DNA of 64,000 nucleotides from Myxococcales bacterium. Its GTDB lineage: Bacteria; Myxococcota_A; UBA9042. Of the stretch, positions 49,903-59,571 are shown in pieces. Numbering within the stretch: the first letter of the stretch is position 1; the number at the start of each line of letters is the position of its first letter. The translations under genes were made by a program, and so were the position numbers. The stretch is taken from positions 1 through 64,000 of the forward strand of contig SHZF01000013.1 in assembly GCA_009692425.1 (NCBI GenBank), given 5' to 3'. Under the pieces are notes generated by a model. It ran no database searches. It was not told where the DNA came from and worked only from the letters and a program-made list of their open reading frames with translations.

Positions 49903-51348
49903 CTAGCGGCCCGACTCCCGCACCGCCCAAGCATACATCGCGACGGCCGCCGCAACCCCCGCGTTCAGCGACTCCGAGCCGTCCGTCATCGGAATTGCCA
50001 CGGCATGTGCGCGCAGCTCCGGCGGCAGCCCCGGCCCCTCGACGCCCGCCACCAGCAAAAAGTCCGCTGGCCACGCCACGCCCGTCAACGGTTGGCCCTC
50101 GGTCGACAGCGCGATGACCGGCGCCGCCAAGTCTTGCGTTGCCAGTGCCTTGAGCGACGGTCCACGCCACAACCGCATCCGCAGCGCCGCCGTGCCACCT
50201 GCGCGCAGGGCTTTGGGGTGGAAGGGGTGCGCGGCTTCCTCCAACAGCACCACGTCTTCGACACCGAACGCCGCGGCCGAACGCAGCACGGCCCCAACGT
50301 TTTCGGGGTCCTGAAATGGAATCGCCAGCGTGCATCCGACGATGCGGCCGTCCCACACGGGCAGGTCCGGCGCGGCCACCACGAGCAGCGGTTGGCCCGT
50401 GCCCGACGTGTCGAGCGACCGAAATAGCAGCGGCGCCAGCACGGTAACCGCCAGTCCCGGCGGAGCGTCGGTCGGCACCTCGATCGTGCCACGCGGAACC
50501 AGCAGTTCGACGGCGCGGTGGGGAAAGTCGCGCAACGCTTCAGGCACGGTGCGCGCGCCCGCCAGCAGCGCGAGGCCCTCCTTGCGCACCCCGCGGCCTT
50601 GGAGCAGCGACGCCCATCGCTTCATGTCCGGGTTGGCCTCGCTGTCGATGTCCCGGGTCCGCCGGCGTGCGACCTCGGCCGGGTCGTCGAGGCGGCGGAA
50701 CACCACCAGTCGGCGACGGTGGGTCGTGGCCGGGATCGCATAGGCCTCGTCGCGTTCGAGTCGCCACGCCCGCCCGAAATGCTGCGCCGCTTCGACTAGT
50801 TCGTCGTCGCAGTGCGGGCCCTTGAGGAACACGGCCGTCCCGCCCGGTGGCACGAGGTGGCGGGTGCGGGCCAGCGTCACCGGCACTCGCTCCAGCGCGC
50901 GCGTCACGATCCCGCGTACCGGCAGCGGCAGGCCTTGCGTGCCGGCGTGGATCTGGTGGCCGAACACATGGACCTGGGCGCCCAAACCGAGTGCGGCGAC
51001 CGCATCGGTCAGGAACGCCACCCGCCGGTGCCGCCCCTCAGACAGCACGAACGTCGTCTGCGGCCGCGCCAACGCCAATGGAATGCCGGGAAACCCCGCG
51101 CCCGACCCGATGTCGACCACCGGCCCATCGAGAGCGTCGCTTTCGGCCAGCTTCTGCGCCACCAGCAGGCAATCGACGTAGTGCAGGGCGACCATCGTCC
51201 CGAACGCGCGCAGCCGGGTCAGGTCGCCGTCGTCGTTGCGGGCGTGCAGCAACTGGTGGAACGTCCACAACTGGGCGAGCGCCGGCCCGTCGAGCCCCAC
51301 GCCCGCCATACGCAGCATGGCCTCGAGGGTGGCGAAAGAAGGAGTCAT
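49903..51348 (-). CDS. Fusion of 16S rRNA m7G527 methyltransferase (RsmG-like) and TrmH/SpoU RNA methyltransferase
   Basis: N-terminal 'VVDIGSGAGFPGIPLALARPQTTFVLSEGRHRRVAFL' (RsmG); C-terminal 'GCTLAIPFQDPENVGAVLRSAAAFGVEDVVLLEEAAHPFHPKALRAGGTAALRM...LVAGVEGPGLPPELRAHAVAIPMTDGSESLNAGVAAAVAMY' (SpoU). Confidence 0.88.
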   Translation of the reverse strand: MTPSFATLEAMLRMAGVGLDGPALAQLWTFHQLLHARNDDGDLTRLRAFGTMVALHYVDCLLVAQKLAESDALDGPVVDIGSGAGFPGIPLALARPQTTFVLSEGRHRRVAFLTDAVAALGLGAQVHVFGHQIHAGTQGLPLPVRGIVTRALERVPVTLARTRHLVPPGGTAVFLKGPHCDDELVEAAQHFGRAWRLERDEAYAIPATTHRRRLVVFRRLDDPAEVARRRTRDIDSEANPDMKRWASLLQGRGVRKEGLALLAGARTVPEALRDFPHRAVELLVPRGTIEVPTDAPPGLAVTVLAPLLFRSLDTSGTGQPLLVVAAPDLPVWDGRIVGCTLAIPFQDPENVGAVLRSAAAFGVEDVVLLEEAAHPFHPKALRAGGTAALRMRLWRGPSLKALATQDLAAPVIALSTEGQPLTGVAWPADFLLVAGVEGPGLPPELRAHAVAIPMTDGSESLNAGVAAAVAMYAWAVRESGR

Positions 51349-52699: not shown

Positions 52700-53509
52700 T
52701 CACGGCTTGGGCGCGTGCAGACCGCATTCCTTGTGCGCGGGCAGTTCCCACCACCAGCGCCCCTCGCGTTCGTGTTGGCCGGGCAGGGTGGCGCGCGTGC
52801 AGGGCTCGCACCCGATGCTGACGAAGCCACGGTGGTGCAGTTCGTTGACGGGGACGTCGGCCCCGCGCAGGTAGGCCCACACCTTCCACGACGGCCATGC
52901 GACGAGCGGGTTCCATTTCCACAGCACCTGGCCCGGCTCAGCGTTGGCGGCATCAATCTGCACGACCGGCACCTCGGCGCGGGTGTCGGGGCTCTGGTCG
53001 CGGCGCTGCCCAGTGATCCAGGCCGGCACGCCCGCGAGAAAGCGGCGCAGTGGGGCGACCTTGCGGATCCCGCAGCATTCCGCGTGGCCGTCTTCGTAAA
53101 AGGAGAACAGGCCACGCCGCCGCACGAGTCCCGCCACCGCATCGGCGTCTGGGAGCACGGCTTCGATGGTGACTCCGTAGCGCGTGCGCACCTGCTCGAT
53201 CAGGCGGTAGGTCTCTGGATGCAGCCGCCCGGTGTCGAGCATGAACACGCGAAATGCCAGCCCTGCGTCGTGCGCCAGAGCGATGAGCGCGACGTCTTCG
53301 GCGCCAGAAAACGCGATGGCGGCCGCGGCACCATGCTCGGCGTGGGCGGCCGCCAGCACCTCGGTCGGGCTCGCGTCCCGCAACCGGCTCGCGCAACTCT
53401 CCACGCGCGCCGCAACGTGTGGGTCGGGAGAGTCGGGCACGGGCAACGTCCGTCGTGGCGGGTGGATGGGCAGAACTCCGACGATAGCAGCCGGCGCCTT
53501 CCTTGCCAA
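52700..53509 (-). CDS. cysH: Phosphoadenylyl/adenylyl-sulfate reductase (CysH family)
   Basis: '[15 protein letters not shown]', '[23 protein letters not shown]', '[16 protein letters not shown]', '[14 protein letters not shown]', 'GCEPCTR', 'ECGLH'; CC and CxxC pattern typical of the Fe-S type. Confidence 0.88.
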
Positions 53510-53567: not shown

Positions 53568-55280
53568 ATGTGCCTGAAAAGTCAGTCGCTTGCCGTTTGG
53601 CTTCGCCGACATCGCGGCACAATGCTCGCGCTGGCAGCTTTCGCGGTGGCGATCGGGTGCGGCGGACCCAAGCACCGCGAAGGTGGGCCGGCGGTTGGCG
53701 AGCCCGGCGGCGCCTACGATCTCGCGTGTCAGGCCGCAGCCGCAGACCGCGTCAAGGAGGCGGGCGCTGGCAAGTACGTGCCGGTGGACCTCCACGTCCA
53801 CCAATGGCCGTCCGGCGACGCGAAGCCCATCACGCGCGCCTTCCTGCCGGAAGCAGAGTTTGGCCAAGCCCTCGTTGCGCCGGCGACTCCCGGCACGCGA
53901 CCGCTGCGCAGCGTGCTGGTGCTGGCGCGCGGCGGCACCGGCAAGTCCAAGCTGGCTTGGTCGCTGGAGGCCCAACTATGCGGGGTGGCTGCGGTCGTGA
54001 AGGTGGACCTCAACGCCGACGTGGCCGCGCACGCGAATGCGGTGCCCGATGGCGCCAACGGCGTGGCCCTCGAAATCGCCAAGCGTCTCGCGCTGCCGGC
54101 GTCGGTCGATGGTCACGCGGCGCTGGCCGACGCGCTCGACGGGCGGCCGTGGGTCATGATCCTCGATTCGCTCGACGAAGTGCCCCTGCTCCAGCGCACC
54201 CAGGTCGTGCGCTGGGTCGACGACGTGGTCGTAAAGCACGCGCCGCACGTGCGCGCCATCGTGATGACACGGCCCCCGGTGTTCACCAGCAATTACGGGC
54301 TGGCCACGCTCGACGCCAAGGTCGAGATCCCGCCGCTCGGGTGCGCCGACACCGAGGCGGCCATCGCGCGCGAGGTCACGGACGCCAAGGCGTCGGCGTT
54401 CTTCAAGGAGTTCGCCACGCGCTACGGCTTGGATCGGAAGGTGACGCTTTTCGACCGATGCTCCTACCCGCACATGTCGACCTTCCGCGATCTCGCCGTC
54501 GTCGTCCGCCTGGTGCGCAACTCCGCGTACGACAAGGAGACTCCGGAATTCAAGACGTTCCAGTCGAGCCGGGCCCAGGTGTACACCTATTTCGCGACGG
54601 CCCAGTTGATCAAGGACATGCAGGGCACGTCGCTGCCCGCCGAGTCGCTCCAGGTGGTCGACAGCATGATGGCTTCGTTCGGTCTCGTCGGAGGCGAGCG
54701 CAACCTGCCGTTCACGCTGCCGCGTTGCGTCGCGGCCGTGGCAGGCGACGACCCGGCGCGCAAGCAGCCCCTGTGCGAACGGCTCCTGCAGTCGGCGCTG
54801 TTCCGCCAGAGTCCGGACCCGGGCGTCTGGCAATTCACGAACCAGACCGTTGGCGACCTGTTCCTGGCGCGTTGGCTGGCAGGCGCGATGCAGAAGAGCG
54901 GCAAGGTAGACTGTAGCGTGGTGGCCGCCAAGGCAGACTTGCTCGAGTCGTCCGAGGTCGCCGGCTTCGTCGTCGGCCTGCCGGCGGGTCAGGAATGCCT
55001 GTGGCCGATCGCGCAGGAGTTGTGTCGGCGCTCCGGCTTTGCCCGCAGCGTCGTCGAACAACTCGACCAGGGCCTGCCGTCGGGTCCGCTGCGTGTCGAA
55101 CTCCTCAAAGGCCTGCAGCAAGACCTCAACGGCGCACCCAACGACCCCTGCCTGACCGCGCTGGTCGATGGCCTGCTCAAGACGGTACCGGTGGATGCCC
55201 TCGCCTTGCCCGCGCCGCCGACGCCTGCGGCCGCGCCCGAGCCACCGGCCAAGCCGAAGAAGGGCAAGAAGGGCAAGTGA
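53568..55280 (+). CDS. NACHT/STAND-like P-loop NTPase with apparent lipoprotein signal peptide
   Basis: MCLKSQSLAVWLRRHRGTMLALAAFAVAIGCGG; Walker A 'LARGGTGKSKLAWSLEAQL'; Walker B 'PWVMILDSLDEVPLLQ'; sensor-like 'VRAIVMTRPPVF'; Lys-rich C-terminus KPKKGKKGK. Confidence 0.7.
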   Translation: MCLKSQSLAVWLRRHRGTMLALAAFAVAIGCGGPKHREGGPAVGEPGGAYDLACQAAAADRVKEAGAGKYVPVDLHVHQWPSGDAKPITRAFLPEAEFGQALVAPATPGTRPLRSVLVLARGGTGKSKLAWSLEAQLCGVAAVVKVDLNADVAAHANAVPDGANGVALEIAKRLALPASVDGHAALADALDGRPWVMILDSLDEVPLLQRTQVVRWVDDVVVKHAPHVRAIVMTRPPVFTSNYGLATLDAKVEIPPLGCADTEAAIAREVTDAKASAFFKEFATRYGLDRKVTLFDRCSYPHMSTFRDLAVVVRLVRNSAYDKETPEFKTFQSSRAQVYTYFATAQLIKDMQGTSLPAESLQVVDSMMASFGLVGGERNLPFTLPRCVAAVAGDDPARKQPLCERLLQSALFRQSPDPGVWQFTNQTVGDLFLARWLAGAMQKSGKVDCSVVAAKADLLESSEVAGFVVGLPAGQECLWPIAQELCRRSGFARSVVEQLDQGLPSGPLRVELLKGLQQDLNGAPNDPCLTALVDGLLKTVPVDALALPAPPTPAAAPEPPAKPKKGKKGK

Positions 55281-55786
55281 GCGCTCCTCGTCCCGGGGCA
55301 GCGCGACGGCCCGTGGTCGTGCGTCACGCCTTGCCCGCGCCGCCCGAGCGCGTGTTCCGCCTGTTCACCGATGGCGCGGACCTGCAGCGCTGGTTTTGCG
55401 ACGCCATCGACGCGGAGCCGCGCGAGGGAGGCCTCATTCACGCGGCGTGGCAGGACGACGATGGCGGGCCGTGGGACCGGATGGGCCGCTTCGCCGTGTT
55501 CGAGCCCCCGCGGCGGGTGGTGATCGAGTGGCAGGCGATCGACGCGCCAGGGGACCCTGCGGACCCCGCGCAGCCCGCCAGCCTGAAAGACGCCGGCACG
55601 CCCGACCGGCTGCAGGTGGCGATCGTGGGCGACGGCGCGGGTGGCTCGACGGTCACGGTCGTCGCGCCGCTGCCGGTTGCCGACGCCGCCGTGCGCGACG
55701 AGGTGCGAATGGAGGCGGCGCAGGCCGGCTGGGCCCAGACGTTCGAGGCGCTCGCGGCGCTGCTGGCGGCCGACGTGAACCGGTAG
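55277..55786 (+). CDS. SRPBCC/AHSA1-like protein
   Basis: GTG start in a GTGA overlap with the NTPase stop; 'VVVRHALPAPPERVFRLFTDGADLQRWFCDAIDAEPREGGLIHAAWQ...EPPRRVVIEWQAIDAP'. Confidence 0.75.
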   Translation: MSAPRPGAARRPVVVRHALPAPPERVFRLFTDGADLQRWFCDAIDAEPREGGLIHAAWQDDDGGPWDRMGRFAVFEPPRRVVIEWQAIDAPGDPADPAQPASLKDAGTPDRLQVAIVGDGAGGSTVTVVAPLPVADAAVRDEVRMEAAQAGWAQTFEALAALLAADVNR

Positions 55787-55803
55787 CCACGGCACGCGAC
55801 CAG

Positions 55804-55920
55804 ACCTGCAAAACCAACGGCGACTGCCCCGAATCGTGTTGCGGCTCGACGACGCTGGGGCAGTTCCTGTGCGTGTGGAACAAAAATCCGTACAAGACGG
55901 TTTTCTGCTTGGGGATTTGA
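55804..55920 (+). pseudogene. Orphan Cys-rich C-terminal fragment without a start codon
   Basis: In-frame TCKTNGDCPESCCGSTTLGQFLCVWNKNPYKTVFCLGI-stop; no ATG/GTG directly upstream in this frame. Confidence 0.35.
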
Positions 55921-56031
55921 CCGCAGTGCGGGGCTTGCGGACAATCCAGCCCGCGCTCCCACCGGCATCGGACCGTGGCGGCAGTCTAGTTCCATGTTCG
56001 GCCCTGGGGTTCCCGGGCCAGGAGATAGTTC

Positions 56032-56466
56032 ATGAATCTGATCGATTTTTCGAAGACCCTGAGCCTTGCCATCATCGGAATCGCTGTCGGCGCCGGCGCC
56101 GCGCACGCATCGCCGGACTGTGACGAGCAAGCCAAGGTTGCCGAGAAGGCCGGCTGCGGCGGCAAGGGCGGCTGCGGCGGCAAGGGCGGCTGCGGCGGCA
56201 AGAAGGACGAGGCCAAGCCGGAAGACAAGAAAGACGACAAGGCCGCGAAGAAGGACGACAAGGCTGCGAAGAAGGACGACAAGGCTGCGAAAAAGGACGA
56301 CGGCGTGGCGAAGAAGGACGACGGCGTGGCGAAGAAGGACGACGGCGCGGCGAAGAAGGACGACGGCGTGGCGAAGAAGGACGACGGCGTGGCGAAGAAG
56401 GACGACGGCGTGGCGAAGAAGGACGACAAGGCTGCGCCCGCGCCGGCCCCCGCCGCACCGAAATAA
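56032..56466 (+). CDS. Small exported repeat protein with CGGKGG Cys motif and KKDDxxA heptads
   Basis: MNLIDFSKTLSLAIIGIAVGAGAAHASPDCDEQAKVAEKAGCGGKGGCGGKGGCGGKKDEAKPED(KKDDxxA)x10 APAPAPAAPK. Confidence 0.8.
   Translation: MNLIDFSKTLSLAIIGIAVGAGAAHASPDCDEQAKVAEKAGCGGKGGCGGKGGCGGKKDEAKPEDKKDDKAAKKDDKAAKKDDKAAKKDDGVAKKDDGVAKKDDGAAKKDDGVAKKDDGVAKKDDGVAKKDDKAAPAPAPAAPK
56227..56436. repeat. Ten 21-bp tandem repeats encoding KKDD[K/G][A/V]A
   Basis: Units read aag aag gac gac (aag/ggc) (gct/gcc/gtg/gcg) gcg, in register over 210 bp. Confidence 0.95.
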
Positions 56467-56805: not shown

Positions 56806-59571
56806 TTGAAGGTCCGCGCGTTTTCGGTCACCGCGTTGGTGGTCGCTGCGTTGGTGGTCGCTCCGTTGGCGGCCTCCTGCACGGGCGCTGACGTCGCGGT
56901 CGATGGGCCGTCGGAGGGGGCAAGTGTTGGCGCTACGGCGGCCGCCAACGTGGACGCCTTGACTGGCGCCGGCCAGCCTGCGCGGCGTCCCGGCGCTTCA
57001 GCCGATGCGGGTCAGGGGCAGGCCGACACGTTCGGGGCCGACACCGCGGCGGTTGCCGATGCCGCGGGTTCTCTCGACGCCGCCCGGACTGCCAGCGACG
57101 CCCGGACTGCCAGCGACGCCCAGCCTCCCCACGACGGCGTGATTTCCAGCGACGGCGCGTCCCCGTTCGACGCGGCCTCCAGCGAAACGCAGCCGAGTGG
57201 CGATGCCGGCGCAGGATCAGCCGACCTGCCGCCCCAAGCCACCTGGTGCCCTCCCAACGCGAAGTGCGGCAAGGCCGACTGCGCCGAGGAGGAAGGGGAG
57301 TGCGACGACGACGAGTCGTGCACCAACGACTCGTGCGTGCCGATGATCGGGTGTGTATTCATGTTCAGCGACGACGGCGTCCACTGTGACGACGGCGACG
57401 CATGCACGCCAATTGGCGGCGACAAGTGCACGGCCGGCACGTGCAGCAATCCGCTCAACGTTTGCAAGTGCACGACCGACGCCACGTGCGAGGTGTTCGA
57501 CGACGGCAACCCGTGCAACGGCACGTACACATGTGGCAAGACCGACAAGGGCGGGCTCTGCAAGCCTCTGGCTGGGTCGGCGGTCGTATGCGCGGTGGGG
57601 GCAATAGGTCCCGCGGGCTGCCTACAGAACGCCTGCAACCCGGCGTCGGGCAAGTGCGAAGTCGTGCCCGTCGCGACCGGCACGCCCTGCCAGGACGGCA
57701 ACCTGTGCGTCACCGGGTCGGCGTGCAACGTCGGCGCGTGCACGGGTGGCGTCGCCATCGAATGCAGTGACGGCGGTCCTTGCTTTTCGGCGGCCTGCGA
57801 CCCCAAGGTGGGCTGCAGTGCCGTCGTCAGCGCCGACAAGCCCGAGTGCGAGGCGCCGAATCCGTGCGGAGTCGCGGGCGTGTGCGCAAATCTGGCGAGC
57901 CCGTGCGCCACCGTGCAGTGCGTGCCCGATGGGGCCGCCAAGTTTCACTGCGAGACGGCACCGGTCGCCGGAGCTTGCGGCGACGGGAACCCGTGCACCC
58001 AGGACGCCTGCGACATGAAGGAAGCATGCGTCCACACGCCGCTCCCCGGCTGCGTGGTGTGCGTGGCCGAAGCGTTCAGCGGCCCATCGGCCACCGCCGA
58101 CTGGGCAATGTGGTCGCAGGACCCCGCGTATGCCCAATGGAAGACGAGCATCGATTCCGCAGGCAATCCGCGCGCGGTCATCACGTGGAAGGGCCCGTTC
58201 GGCCCTGGCTTGCCTGGCGCCTCGTCGGCGTACCTCATGCACCGGCGCTTGCACTTCGGCCCGGGTGTCGCCGCACAGTTGTCGTTCCGCTATCGGCTGA
58301 CGGTCGGCAATCAGTCGTGCACGCACGACACCTTGCAAGCCGTCGTCAACGGGATGGTCGTGTTCGAGGCATGCGAAACGACCACGAAAAAGAGCGACGC
58401 CTGGCTCAAGGCGACCGTGGACCTGGCGCCGTTTGCGGGCGCGCCGGCCGATATTGAGTTCCGCGTGCCAGCGGGGCACTTCTGGAACGAGTGGGGGACC
58501 ATCGAAGTCGACGACGTCAAAATCTCTGGTGCGTGTGGACCCGGTTGCATCGGTGGGGATTTCGAAACCCGCTCCGCCGCCAAGGTCGACCCCTCGTCGA
58601 TCACGCCCCAAGCGTGGACGCTGACGTCGGATCAGCCGACGTACGCGAACTGGACCCGCACGCACACGGGCGGCCACACCGGCGTCGCGGCGATGTCGGT
58701 GTTGGCATCGGGCCTGGCGCCGGGTGGCAAATCGGTGCTGGTGGGTTGGGACGTGCCGCGGGTCAAGCCCGGCCCGACGAGCAAGCTGTGGTTTGCGGCG
58801 CGCGCGCTGAAGGTGGGGGCCGCCACCTGCGGCTCCGACGACCTGCGGCTGCGCATCGATGGCGAGGTGGTGTGGGAACTGTGCAAGTCCCAACCGAAGT
58901 GGACGCTCCACACCTTCGACCTCGCGCCGTGGGCCGGCAAGGACGTGAACGTGGCGTTCGAGGTCGTTACCGGCGGGGGCGCGGCCAACAGCGGTGGCAT
59001 CTTTCAGATCGACGATTTCGCCGTGACGGGAGCCTGTTCGTACGCCTGCTTCCAAGAGGGCTTCGACACGCCGACGGGGGTTGCCGCGTGGTATTCGATG
59101 GCCACGCCGGGCTGGGCGGGCTGGACCACCGCGATCGATGGGCCAGCGTCGCCGCCCCACAGTGCAGGCGTAGACTTTGGCGCCGGCCAACCTGCTGGTG
59201 CCTTGGCGAGCCTCATGCCCAAGGAACAGTGGCGTTGGCCCATGCCCGTGGCCGGCGCGACGCTCGAGTACCGCGTCAAAGGCACGCTGGCGAAGGCAGA
59301 GTGTCCGACGCCCGTGCTGACCACGAAGGTCTCGTATATCAATGACTTTTCAATGTTCGCCAATGGGTCCGAAAGCTTCTACAACCACCCGGCTCCGGTC
59401 ACGCTGCACACGGTGTGCGCGGCGACCCCGGGCTGGCAGACGTACACCGCGCCGTTCCCCGACAAGGTCAAGGGCCAGAAATTCGTGCCGGTGTTGTTCG
59501 CAAAGCGGCCGTCTGCGGCTGCGTTGCCGGCGTCGCTCCGGGTCGACGACTTCGTCGTGCGTTGCCACTGA
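56806..59571 (+). CDS. Cys-rich lipoprotein with CTDC repeats and three tandem C-terminal beta-sandwich modules
   Basis: MKVRAFSVTALVVAALVVAPLAASC; CDDGDACTP, CQDGNLCVTGSACNVGAC; modules starting 'CVAEAFSGPSATADWAMWS', 'CIGGDFETRSAAKVDPS', 'CFQEGFDTPTGVAAWYSMA'. Confidence 0.85.
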   Translation: MKVRAFSVTALVVAALVVAPLAASCTGADVAVDGPSEGASVGATAAANVDALTGAGQPARRPGASADAGQGQADTFGADTAAVADAAGSLDAARTASDARTASDAQPPHDGVISSDGASPFDAASSETQPSGDAGAGSADLPPQATWCPPNAKCGKADCAEEEGECDDDESCTNDSCVPMIGCVFMFSDDGVHCDDGDACTPIGGDKCTAGTCSNPLNVCKCTTDATCEVFDDGNPCNGTYTCGKTDKGGLCKPLAGSAVVCAVGAIGPAGCLQNACNPASGKCEVVPVATGTPCQDGNLCVTGSACNVGACTGGVAIECSDGGPCFSAACDPKVGCSAVVSADKPECEAPNPCGVAGVCANLASPCATVQCVPDGAAKFHCETAPVAGACGDGNPCTQDACDMKEACVHTPLPGCVVCVAEAFSGPSATADWAMWSQDPAYAQWKTSIDSAGNPRAVITWKGPFGPGLPGASSAYLMHRRLHFGPGVAAQLSFRYRLTVGNQSCTHDTLQAVVNGMVVFEACETTTKKSDAWLKATVDLAPFAGAPADIEFRVPAGHFWNEWGTIEVDDVKISGACGPGCIGGDFETRSAAKVDPSSITPQAWTLTSDQPTYANWTRTHTGGHTGVAAMSVLASGLAPGGKSVLVGWDVPRVKPGPTSKLWFAARALKVGAATCGSDDLRLRIDGEVVWELCKSQPKWTLHTFDLAPWAGKDVNVAFEVVTGGGAANSGGIFQIDDFAVTGACSYACFQEGFDTPTGVAAWYSMATPGWAGWTTAIDGPASPPHSAGVDFGAGQPAGALASLMPKEQWRWPMPVAGATLEYRVKGTLAKAECPTPVLTTKVSYINDFSMFANGSESFYNHPAPVTLHTVCAATPGWQTYTAPFPDKVKGQKFVPVLFAKRPSAAALPASLRVDDFVVRCH

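Follow-up and report, generated by a model that had tools for sequence, protein, structure and literature searches.

NACHT/STAND switches are regarded as cytosolic proteins that need ATP and a reducing cytosol, and the locus described here raises the question of whether such a fold may also be employed outside of the cytoplasm. The window (the whole 64,000-nucleotide stretch of contig SHZF01000013.1 from a Myxococcales bacterium that was analyzed) contains a gene for a protein that an earlier note described as a NACHT-type NTPase bearing a lipoprotein signal and coupled to an SRPBCC protein; it was left undecided whether this protein is a membrane protein facing the cytoplasm or represents a new compartment for the fold. 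In the present work, we have aligned 92 stop-to-stop ORFs of this family, whose identity to the window protein is 21–51%, and the use of stop-to-stop ORFs means that the choice of start codon is unable to bias the alignment of the signal region. The features of the locus are summarized in Table 1.

Table 1. Characteristics of the NACHT lipoprotein gene and its immediate neighbors in the window.
Feature	Position	Strand	Evidence
Exported NACHT-core lipoprotein precursor (predicted), 570 aa	53568..55280	+	ORF with ATG start, 91 aligned homologous ORFs, AlphaFold, Foldseek NLR matches
Lipoprotein signal peptide, residues 1–30	53568..53657	+	RRHR n-region, hydrophobic h-region, lipobox AIG followed by Cys; homologous region across family
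Lipobox Cys31, predicted lipidation site, +2 residue Gly	53658..53660	+	Cys in 86/87 spanning sequences
Walker A RGGTGKSKLA, residues 121–130	53928..53957	+	G123 and G125 invariant, K126 in 87/88
Extended Walker B WVMILDSLDEV, residues 195–205 (D200, E204)	54150..54182	+	D200 100%, E204 98%
Sensor-1-like TRPPVF, residues 234–239 (R235, P236)	54267..54284	+	R235 100%, P236 97%
Winged-helix (WHD) motif VWQFTNQTVGDLFLARW, residues 420–436	54825..54875	+	R435 in 90/92, A434 in 85/92
Ten conserved Cys: 54, 138, 259, 298, 387, 403, 449, 477, 486, 528 (predicted disulfides)	53727..55151	+	Each kept in 97–100%
C-terminal tail rich in Ala/Pro/Lys, ending in KPKKGKKGK	55203..55277	+	Lys-rich end common to most orthologs
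SRPBCC (AHSA1-like) protein, 169 aa, GTG start	55277..55786	+	PF08327, E 6.8e-19
PAPS-reductase family gene, divergent upstream neighbor, syntenic marker of the orthologous locus	52700..53509	-	

The signal region is homologous across these relatives, and the homology begins upstream of the lipobox Cys. The N-terminus of the window protein is MCLKSQSLAVWLRRHRGTMLALAAFAVAIG, followed by C31, and the frame upstream of its ATG is open for 11 codons only (581 aa in all), leaving little space for a longer N-terminus. The lipobox Cys is retained in all but one of the 87 sequences spanning its column, and in nearly all members a start with a plausible n-region and h-region is present 14–45 residues upstream of it. 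A PS51257-like lipoprotein pattern is found within the first 50 residues of 70 of 86 members (80 of 86 with a relaxed pattern), compared with 1.2% in a shuffled-body control to which the unrelaxed pattern only was applied, and the lipoprotein signal noticed earlier is thus borne out. The residue after the lipobox Cys is Gly in 64 and Ser in 15 of these 86 members, and not Asp. In E. coli, the residue at this +2 position guides lipoprotein sorting, and by this rule the Gly or Ser found in 79 of the 86 suggests that these proteins may be sorted to the outer membrane. Three outlying members are without a lipobox: one of them (L112 from genome G043) has a type-I-like signal peptide together with all ten of the conserved Cys, and in the other two (L087 and L111) a positively charged N-terminus precedes a single hydrophobic signal anchor, which by the positive-inside rule would be oriented N-in. 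These outlying members also look exported or anchored. Export by the Tat pathway was considered and set aside, since no conserved twin-Arg motif is present among the signals of the family. The genome containing the window carries an Lgt gene (E 2.9e-65) and 19 DsbA-domain matches, and Lgt/Lsp chemistry puts a lipidated Cys on the outer leaflet of the inner membrane. The window protein is almost certainly exported and very probably lipidated, and its predicted extracytoplasmic compartment is the part of our account that the sequences support strongly.

Cysteines other than the ten conserved residues are rare, with none in 81 and a single one in 11 of the 92 sequences. Cys259 and Cys298 are jointly absent from three sequences (L070, L071, and L087) and never singly, which suggests that these two residues are partners. 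In five cytosolic STAND relatives, for which the aligned columns could be checked, position 138 is Ala in all five and position 259 is not Cys; one isolated Cys occurs at position 298, and the ten-Cys set is not common to them. We propose that the ten conserved Cys may form about five disulfides outside of the cytoplasm. Together with the lipobox and the signals of the outlying members, these Cys favor a new compartment for the fold over a cytoplasm-facing membrane protein.

The nucleotide-binding site is conserved to a similar degree. The Walker A, ILDSLDEVP Walker B, and TRPP motifs that had been recognized in the earlier note are all present and correspond to the pattern expected for this class (viz. 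GxxGxGK[ST], an extended acidic Walker B of the form hhhhDxxDE, and an Arg-Pro sensor after the next strand). The note had named homologs without the N-terminal segment, or without the P-loop residues, as observations that would speak against its reading, and had suggested a survey for the joint conservation of the lipobox Cys and the P-loop; in our alignment the lipobox Cys and the P-loop Lys are retained in 86/87 and 87/88 sequences, respectively. The constraint on the P-loop, D200, and R235 across the observed range of identity suggests that the site is in use and points to strong purifying selection on it, and the window protein is likely to bind nucleotide, as judged from these residues.

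An AlphaFold model of the mature sequence, made with 87 alignment rows, has a pLDDT of 92.2 and a pTM of 0.88, and the best 50 Foldseek matches listed against the PDB are all NACHT/NLR structures except for one FtsH (best E 1.1e-8). These alignments mostly extend over >480 columns at 10–16% identity to NLRs, with TM-scores to the query of 0.21–0.49 (mostly about 0.3–0.5), which are moderate values; the highest of them (0.44–0.49) are to NAIP/NLRC4 inflammasome and active NLRP3 structures. The model, read with the predominance of NLRs among these moderately scoring matches, agrees with an NBD-HD1-WHD-HD2 fold. A WHD-like motif, FxNQxxxDLFLARW, is also conserved, and the canonical nucleotide-contacting His position of the WHD is occupied by Asn in 40, Asp in 21, and His in 17 of the 92 sequences, with Ser also occurring. 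The Pfam NACHT domain (PF05729) is matched by 16 of 87 members at E<=0.01 (best E 1.9e-7); the window protein alone has no Pfam match over the cut-off, PF05729 included, and a Pfam scan of its genome returned no NACHT domain over the cut-off. A PDB sequence search retrieved P-loop similarity only (best match ArsA, E 0.0013). Effector and sensor repeats are part of the typical STAND architecture and not of the NTPase domain itself; a Pfam search found neither N-terminal effector nor C-terminal sensor repeats in the family, and in the modeled fold the WHD is followed by terminal helices. We consider descent of the family from NACHT/STAND proteins to be very likely.

NACHT lipoproteins of this family are present in all 22 examined genomes of the same taxonomic family, in 2–7 copies each. 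Four paralogs of the window protein (29–35% identity) are found in its own genome (G000); in one of these (L005, contig C67), the P-loop Lys is gone (GLGTTR), the sole such loss, and the C-terminal third is missing. Paralogs also occur as tandem pairs in six genomes (G006, G008, G015, G018, G011, and G012; L035, L036, L037, L082, L088, and L089). In the rest of the class, full-length members are limited to G026 (two) and G043 (one), and 377 genomes of the phylum yielded one further member, split and partial (G272, E 2.1e-26). Its two contig-end pieces (L110 and L111) contain a membrane anchor, the P-loop GEVGVGKS, and six conserved C-terminal Cys, and look like parts of one distant member. Elsewhere in the phylum, matches to the family profile are weak and mostly confined to the NTPase part of 700–1500 aa ORFs. 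A pattern scan of genome contigs with the window protein alone gave 168 matches with no relative among them, a plasmid search with the family gave no match, and an NCBIfam search gave scattered weak matches only.

The gene immediately downstream encodes a clear member of the AHSA1/SRPBCC family, and, as had been noticed earlier, its GTG start and the TGA that ends the NACHT gene overlap within GTGA (at 55277). The suggested coupling of the two proteins holds in part: within the close ortholog clade the SRPBCC gene directly follows the NACHT gene in 16/16 genomes, but it was not detected beside five sister-clade members in the stretches examined, some of which are short. This limitation of the linkage to the close clade indicates that the SRPBCC protein is an added partner, and we infer that the NACHT lipoprotein and the cytosolic SRPBCC protein may function together. 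The PAPS-reductase-family gene adjoins most orthologs, including the sister-clade members without SRPBCC. Several other observations concern the surrounding genes. A single ORF at 49903–51348 (minus strand) combines two rRNA methyltransferase domains, GidB/RsmG (residues 25–190) and SpoU methylase (residues 345–472). At 55787–55921 (plus strand), a frame that is open from 55168 continues past the SRPBCC stop and ends in the Cys-rich TARDQTCKTNGDCPESCCGSTTLGQFLCVWNKNPYKTVFCLGI. A signal-peptide-like protein with GGCGGK and KKDD-type repeats and no Pfam match is located at 56032–56466 (plus strand), and a 921-aa ORF at 56806–59571 (plus strand), with Dicty_CTDC and MAM-like matches, is likely a large secreted protein.

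The family shares a number of characteristics with known NACHT proteins. Foldseek likeness to the NACHT cores of NLRs (viz. NLRP3, NOD2, NLRC4, and NAIP5) extends over most of the mature protein, and the NBD-HD1-WHD-HD2 order, Walker A, the extended Walker B, and the Arg sensor are shared; however, NLRs are cytosolic, carry effector and LRR domains, and are without the predicted disulfide set of this family. Bacterial NACHT/STAND proteins (bNACHT, Avs) are related through the Pfam NACHT matches noted above and through the family profile, which reaches large cytosolic STANDs of the phylum, whereas the present family is predicted to be exported, has conserved Cys and no detected effector or sensor repeats, and occurs in every examined genome of its taxonomic family. 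In the open-access literature, we found no description of an exported NACHT lipoprotein family and one precedent, the DGR-diversified NACHT-CLec target of Thiohalocapsa PB-PSB1, whose NACHT is likewise predicted to be periplasmic (PMC10907252). That target differs in being a single protein with a lectin domain and an associated DGR, and it is not described there as a conserved, disulfide-bearing lipoprotein family (PMC10907252). The family thus appears to be previously unnamed, its fold being known and its predicted compartment, minimal architecture, and Cys set being new.

The members of this family may represent, with a rough probability of 0.55, lineage-specific extracytoplasmic NLR-like NTPases that are lipid-anchored and disulfide-stabilized, bind nucleotide there, and thereby sense extracellular or periplasmic nucleotides. 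The precursor would comprise the whole NACHT core (NBD-HD1-WHD-HD2), lacking both the N-terminal effector and the C-terminal repeat sensor that usually accompany it. It would be exported by Sec in an unfolded state, cleaved and lipidated at Cys31, and would then fold outside of the cytoplasm with about five disulfides. There it would bind whatever nucleotide it meets, be it ATP, ADP, or a different NTP that has leaked out or been released, and occupancy of the P-loop would act as a low-turnover conformational switch or envelope receptor and not as an ATP-burning motor. That this exported, oxidized core would be a nucleotide-occupancy switch in the envelope is the likeliest of the accounts considered, and sensing of nucleotides as its role is proposed tentatively; the identity of the nucleotide, the switching, the signaling target, and the outer-membrane location are what we infer. 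The account is based upon the export signal, the Cys pattern, the P-loop, Walker B, and Arg residues, the NLR-like fold, and the occurrence of members in each of the 22 genomes examined for the taxonomic family. Points against it are the mostly Asn or Asp residues at the WHD His position, the moderate TM-scores, the lack of a Pfam match over the cut-off for the window protein alone, and the lack of a detected effector or sensor domain. ATP has been reported in the periplasm and OMVs of E. coli, where the periplasmic pool is low and quickly hydrolyzed (PMC7432876), and an ATP-driven cycle would therefore be hard to sustain.

The same scarcity of ATP outside of the cytoplasm (PMC7432876) speaks for an alternative in which the exported NACHT core serves purely as a scaffold or a binding fold, for instance in the assembly of the envelope or in holding a phosphate ligand other than a nucleotide, and its P-loop does not bind ATP. 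The paralog L005 and the frequent substitution of the WHD His are in keeping with this possibility, which we regard as rather unlikely given that Lys126 is kept in 87/88 sequences and the P-loop glycines, Asp200, and Arg235 are invariant over 21–51% identity. An intact site on an exported, multicopy protein could also belong to an apyrase-like hydrolase that scavenges or clears extracellular ATP. However, other STAND proteins are slow switches and not scavenging enzymes, and no nucleoside transport or phosphatase genes are linked to it among the immediate neighbors in the window, which makes such a role improbable.

To our knowledge, all characterized bacterial NACHT/STANDs are cytosolic, and internal GTG codons are present in the ORF downstream of the signal, so it could be argued that the start is misplaced, or that the hydrophobic segment does no more than anchor the protein in the inner membrane, and that the NACHT core is cytosolic or faces the cytoplasm. 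This explanation is scarcely credible: homology begins ahead of a lipobox Cys kept in 86/87 sequences, a start after residue 54 would remove the invariant Cys54, ten Cys are conserved, a lipidated Cys is placed on the outer leaflet by Lgt/Lsp chemistry, and the positive N-terminal charges of the outlying anchors point to an N-in orientation. It is also very improbable that the family represents STANDs of the anti-phage or conflict-system type (Avs/bNACHT-like) that occupy a new location. The fold class is the same, and in one protein diversified by a DGR the NACHT and lectin domains are predicted to be periplasmic (PMC10907252), but PADLOC matches are to scattered families with none convincing (best E 0.0019), Pfam found no effector or repeat sensor domain, plasmids gave no match, and the presence of the family in 22/22 genomes, together with a syntenic locus for this ortholog, is unlike the patchy distribution of defense genes.

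Understood as extracytoplasmic NLR-like NTPases, the members of this family supply a minimal form of the NACHT core that lacks effector and sensor domains, and they raise the question of which nucleotide a NACHT switch meets outside of the cytoplasm. The joint retention of the P-loop, the export signal, and the ten Cys makes it directly testable whether a nucleotide switch can function in surroundings that are poor in ATP.
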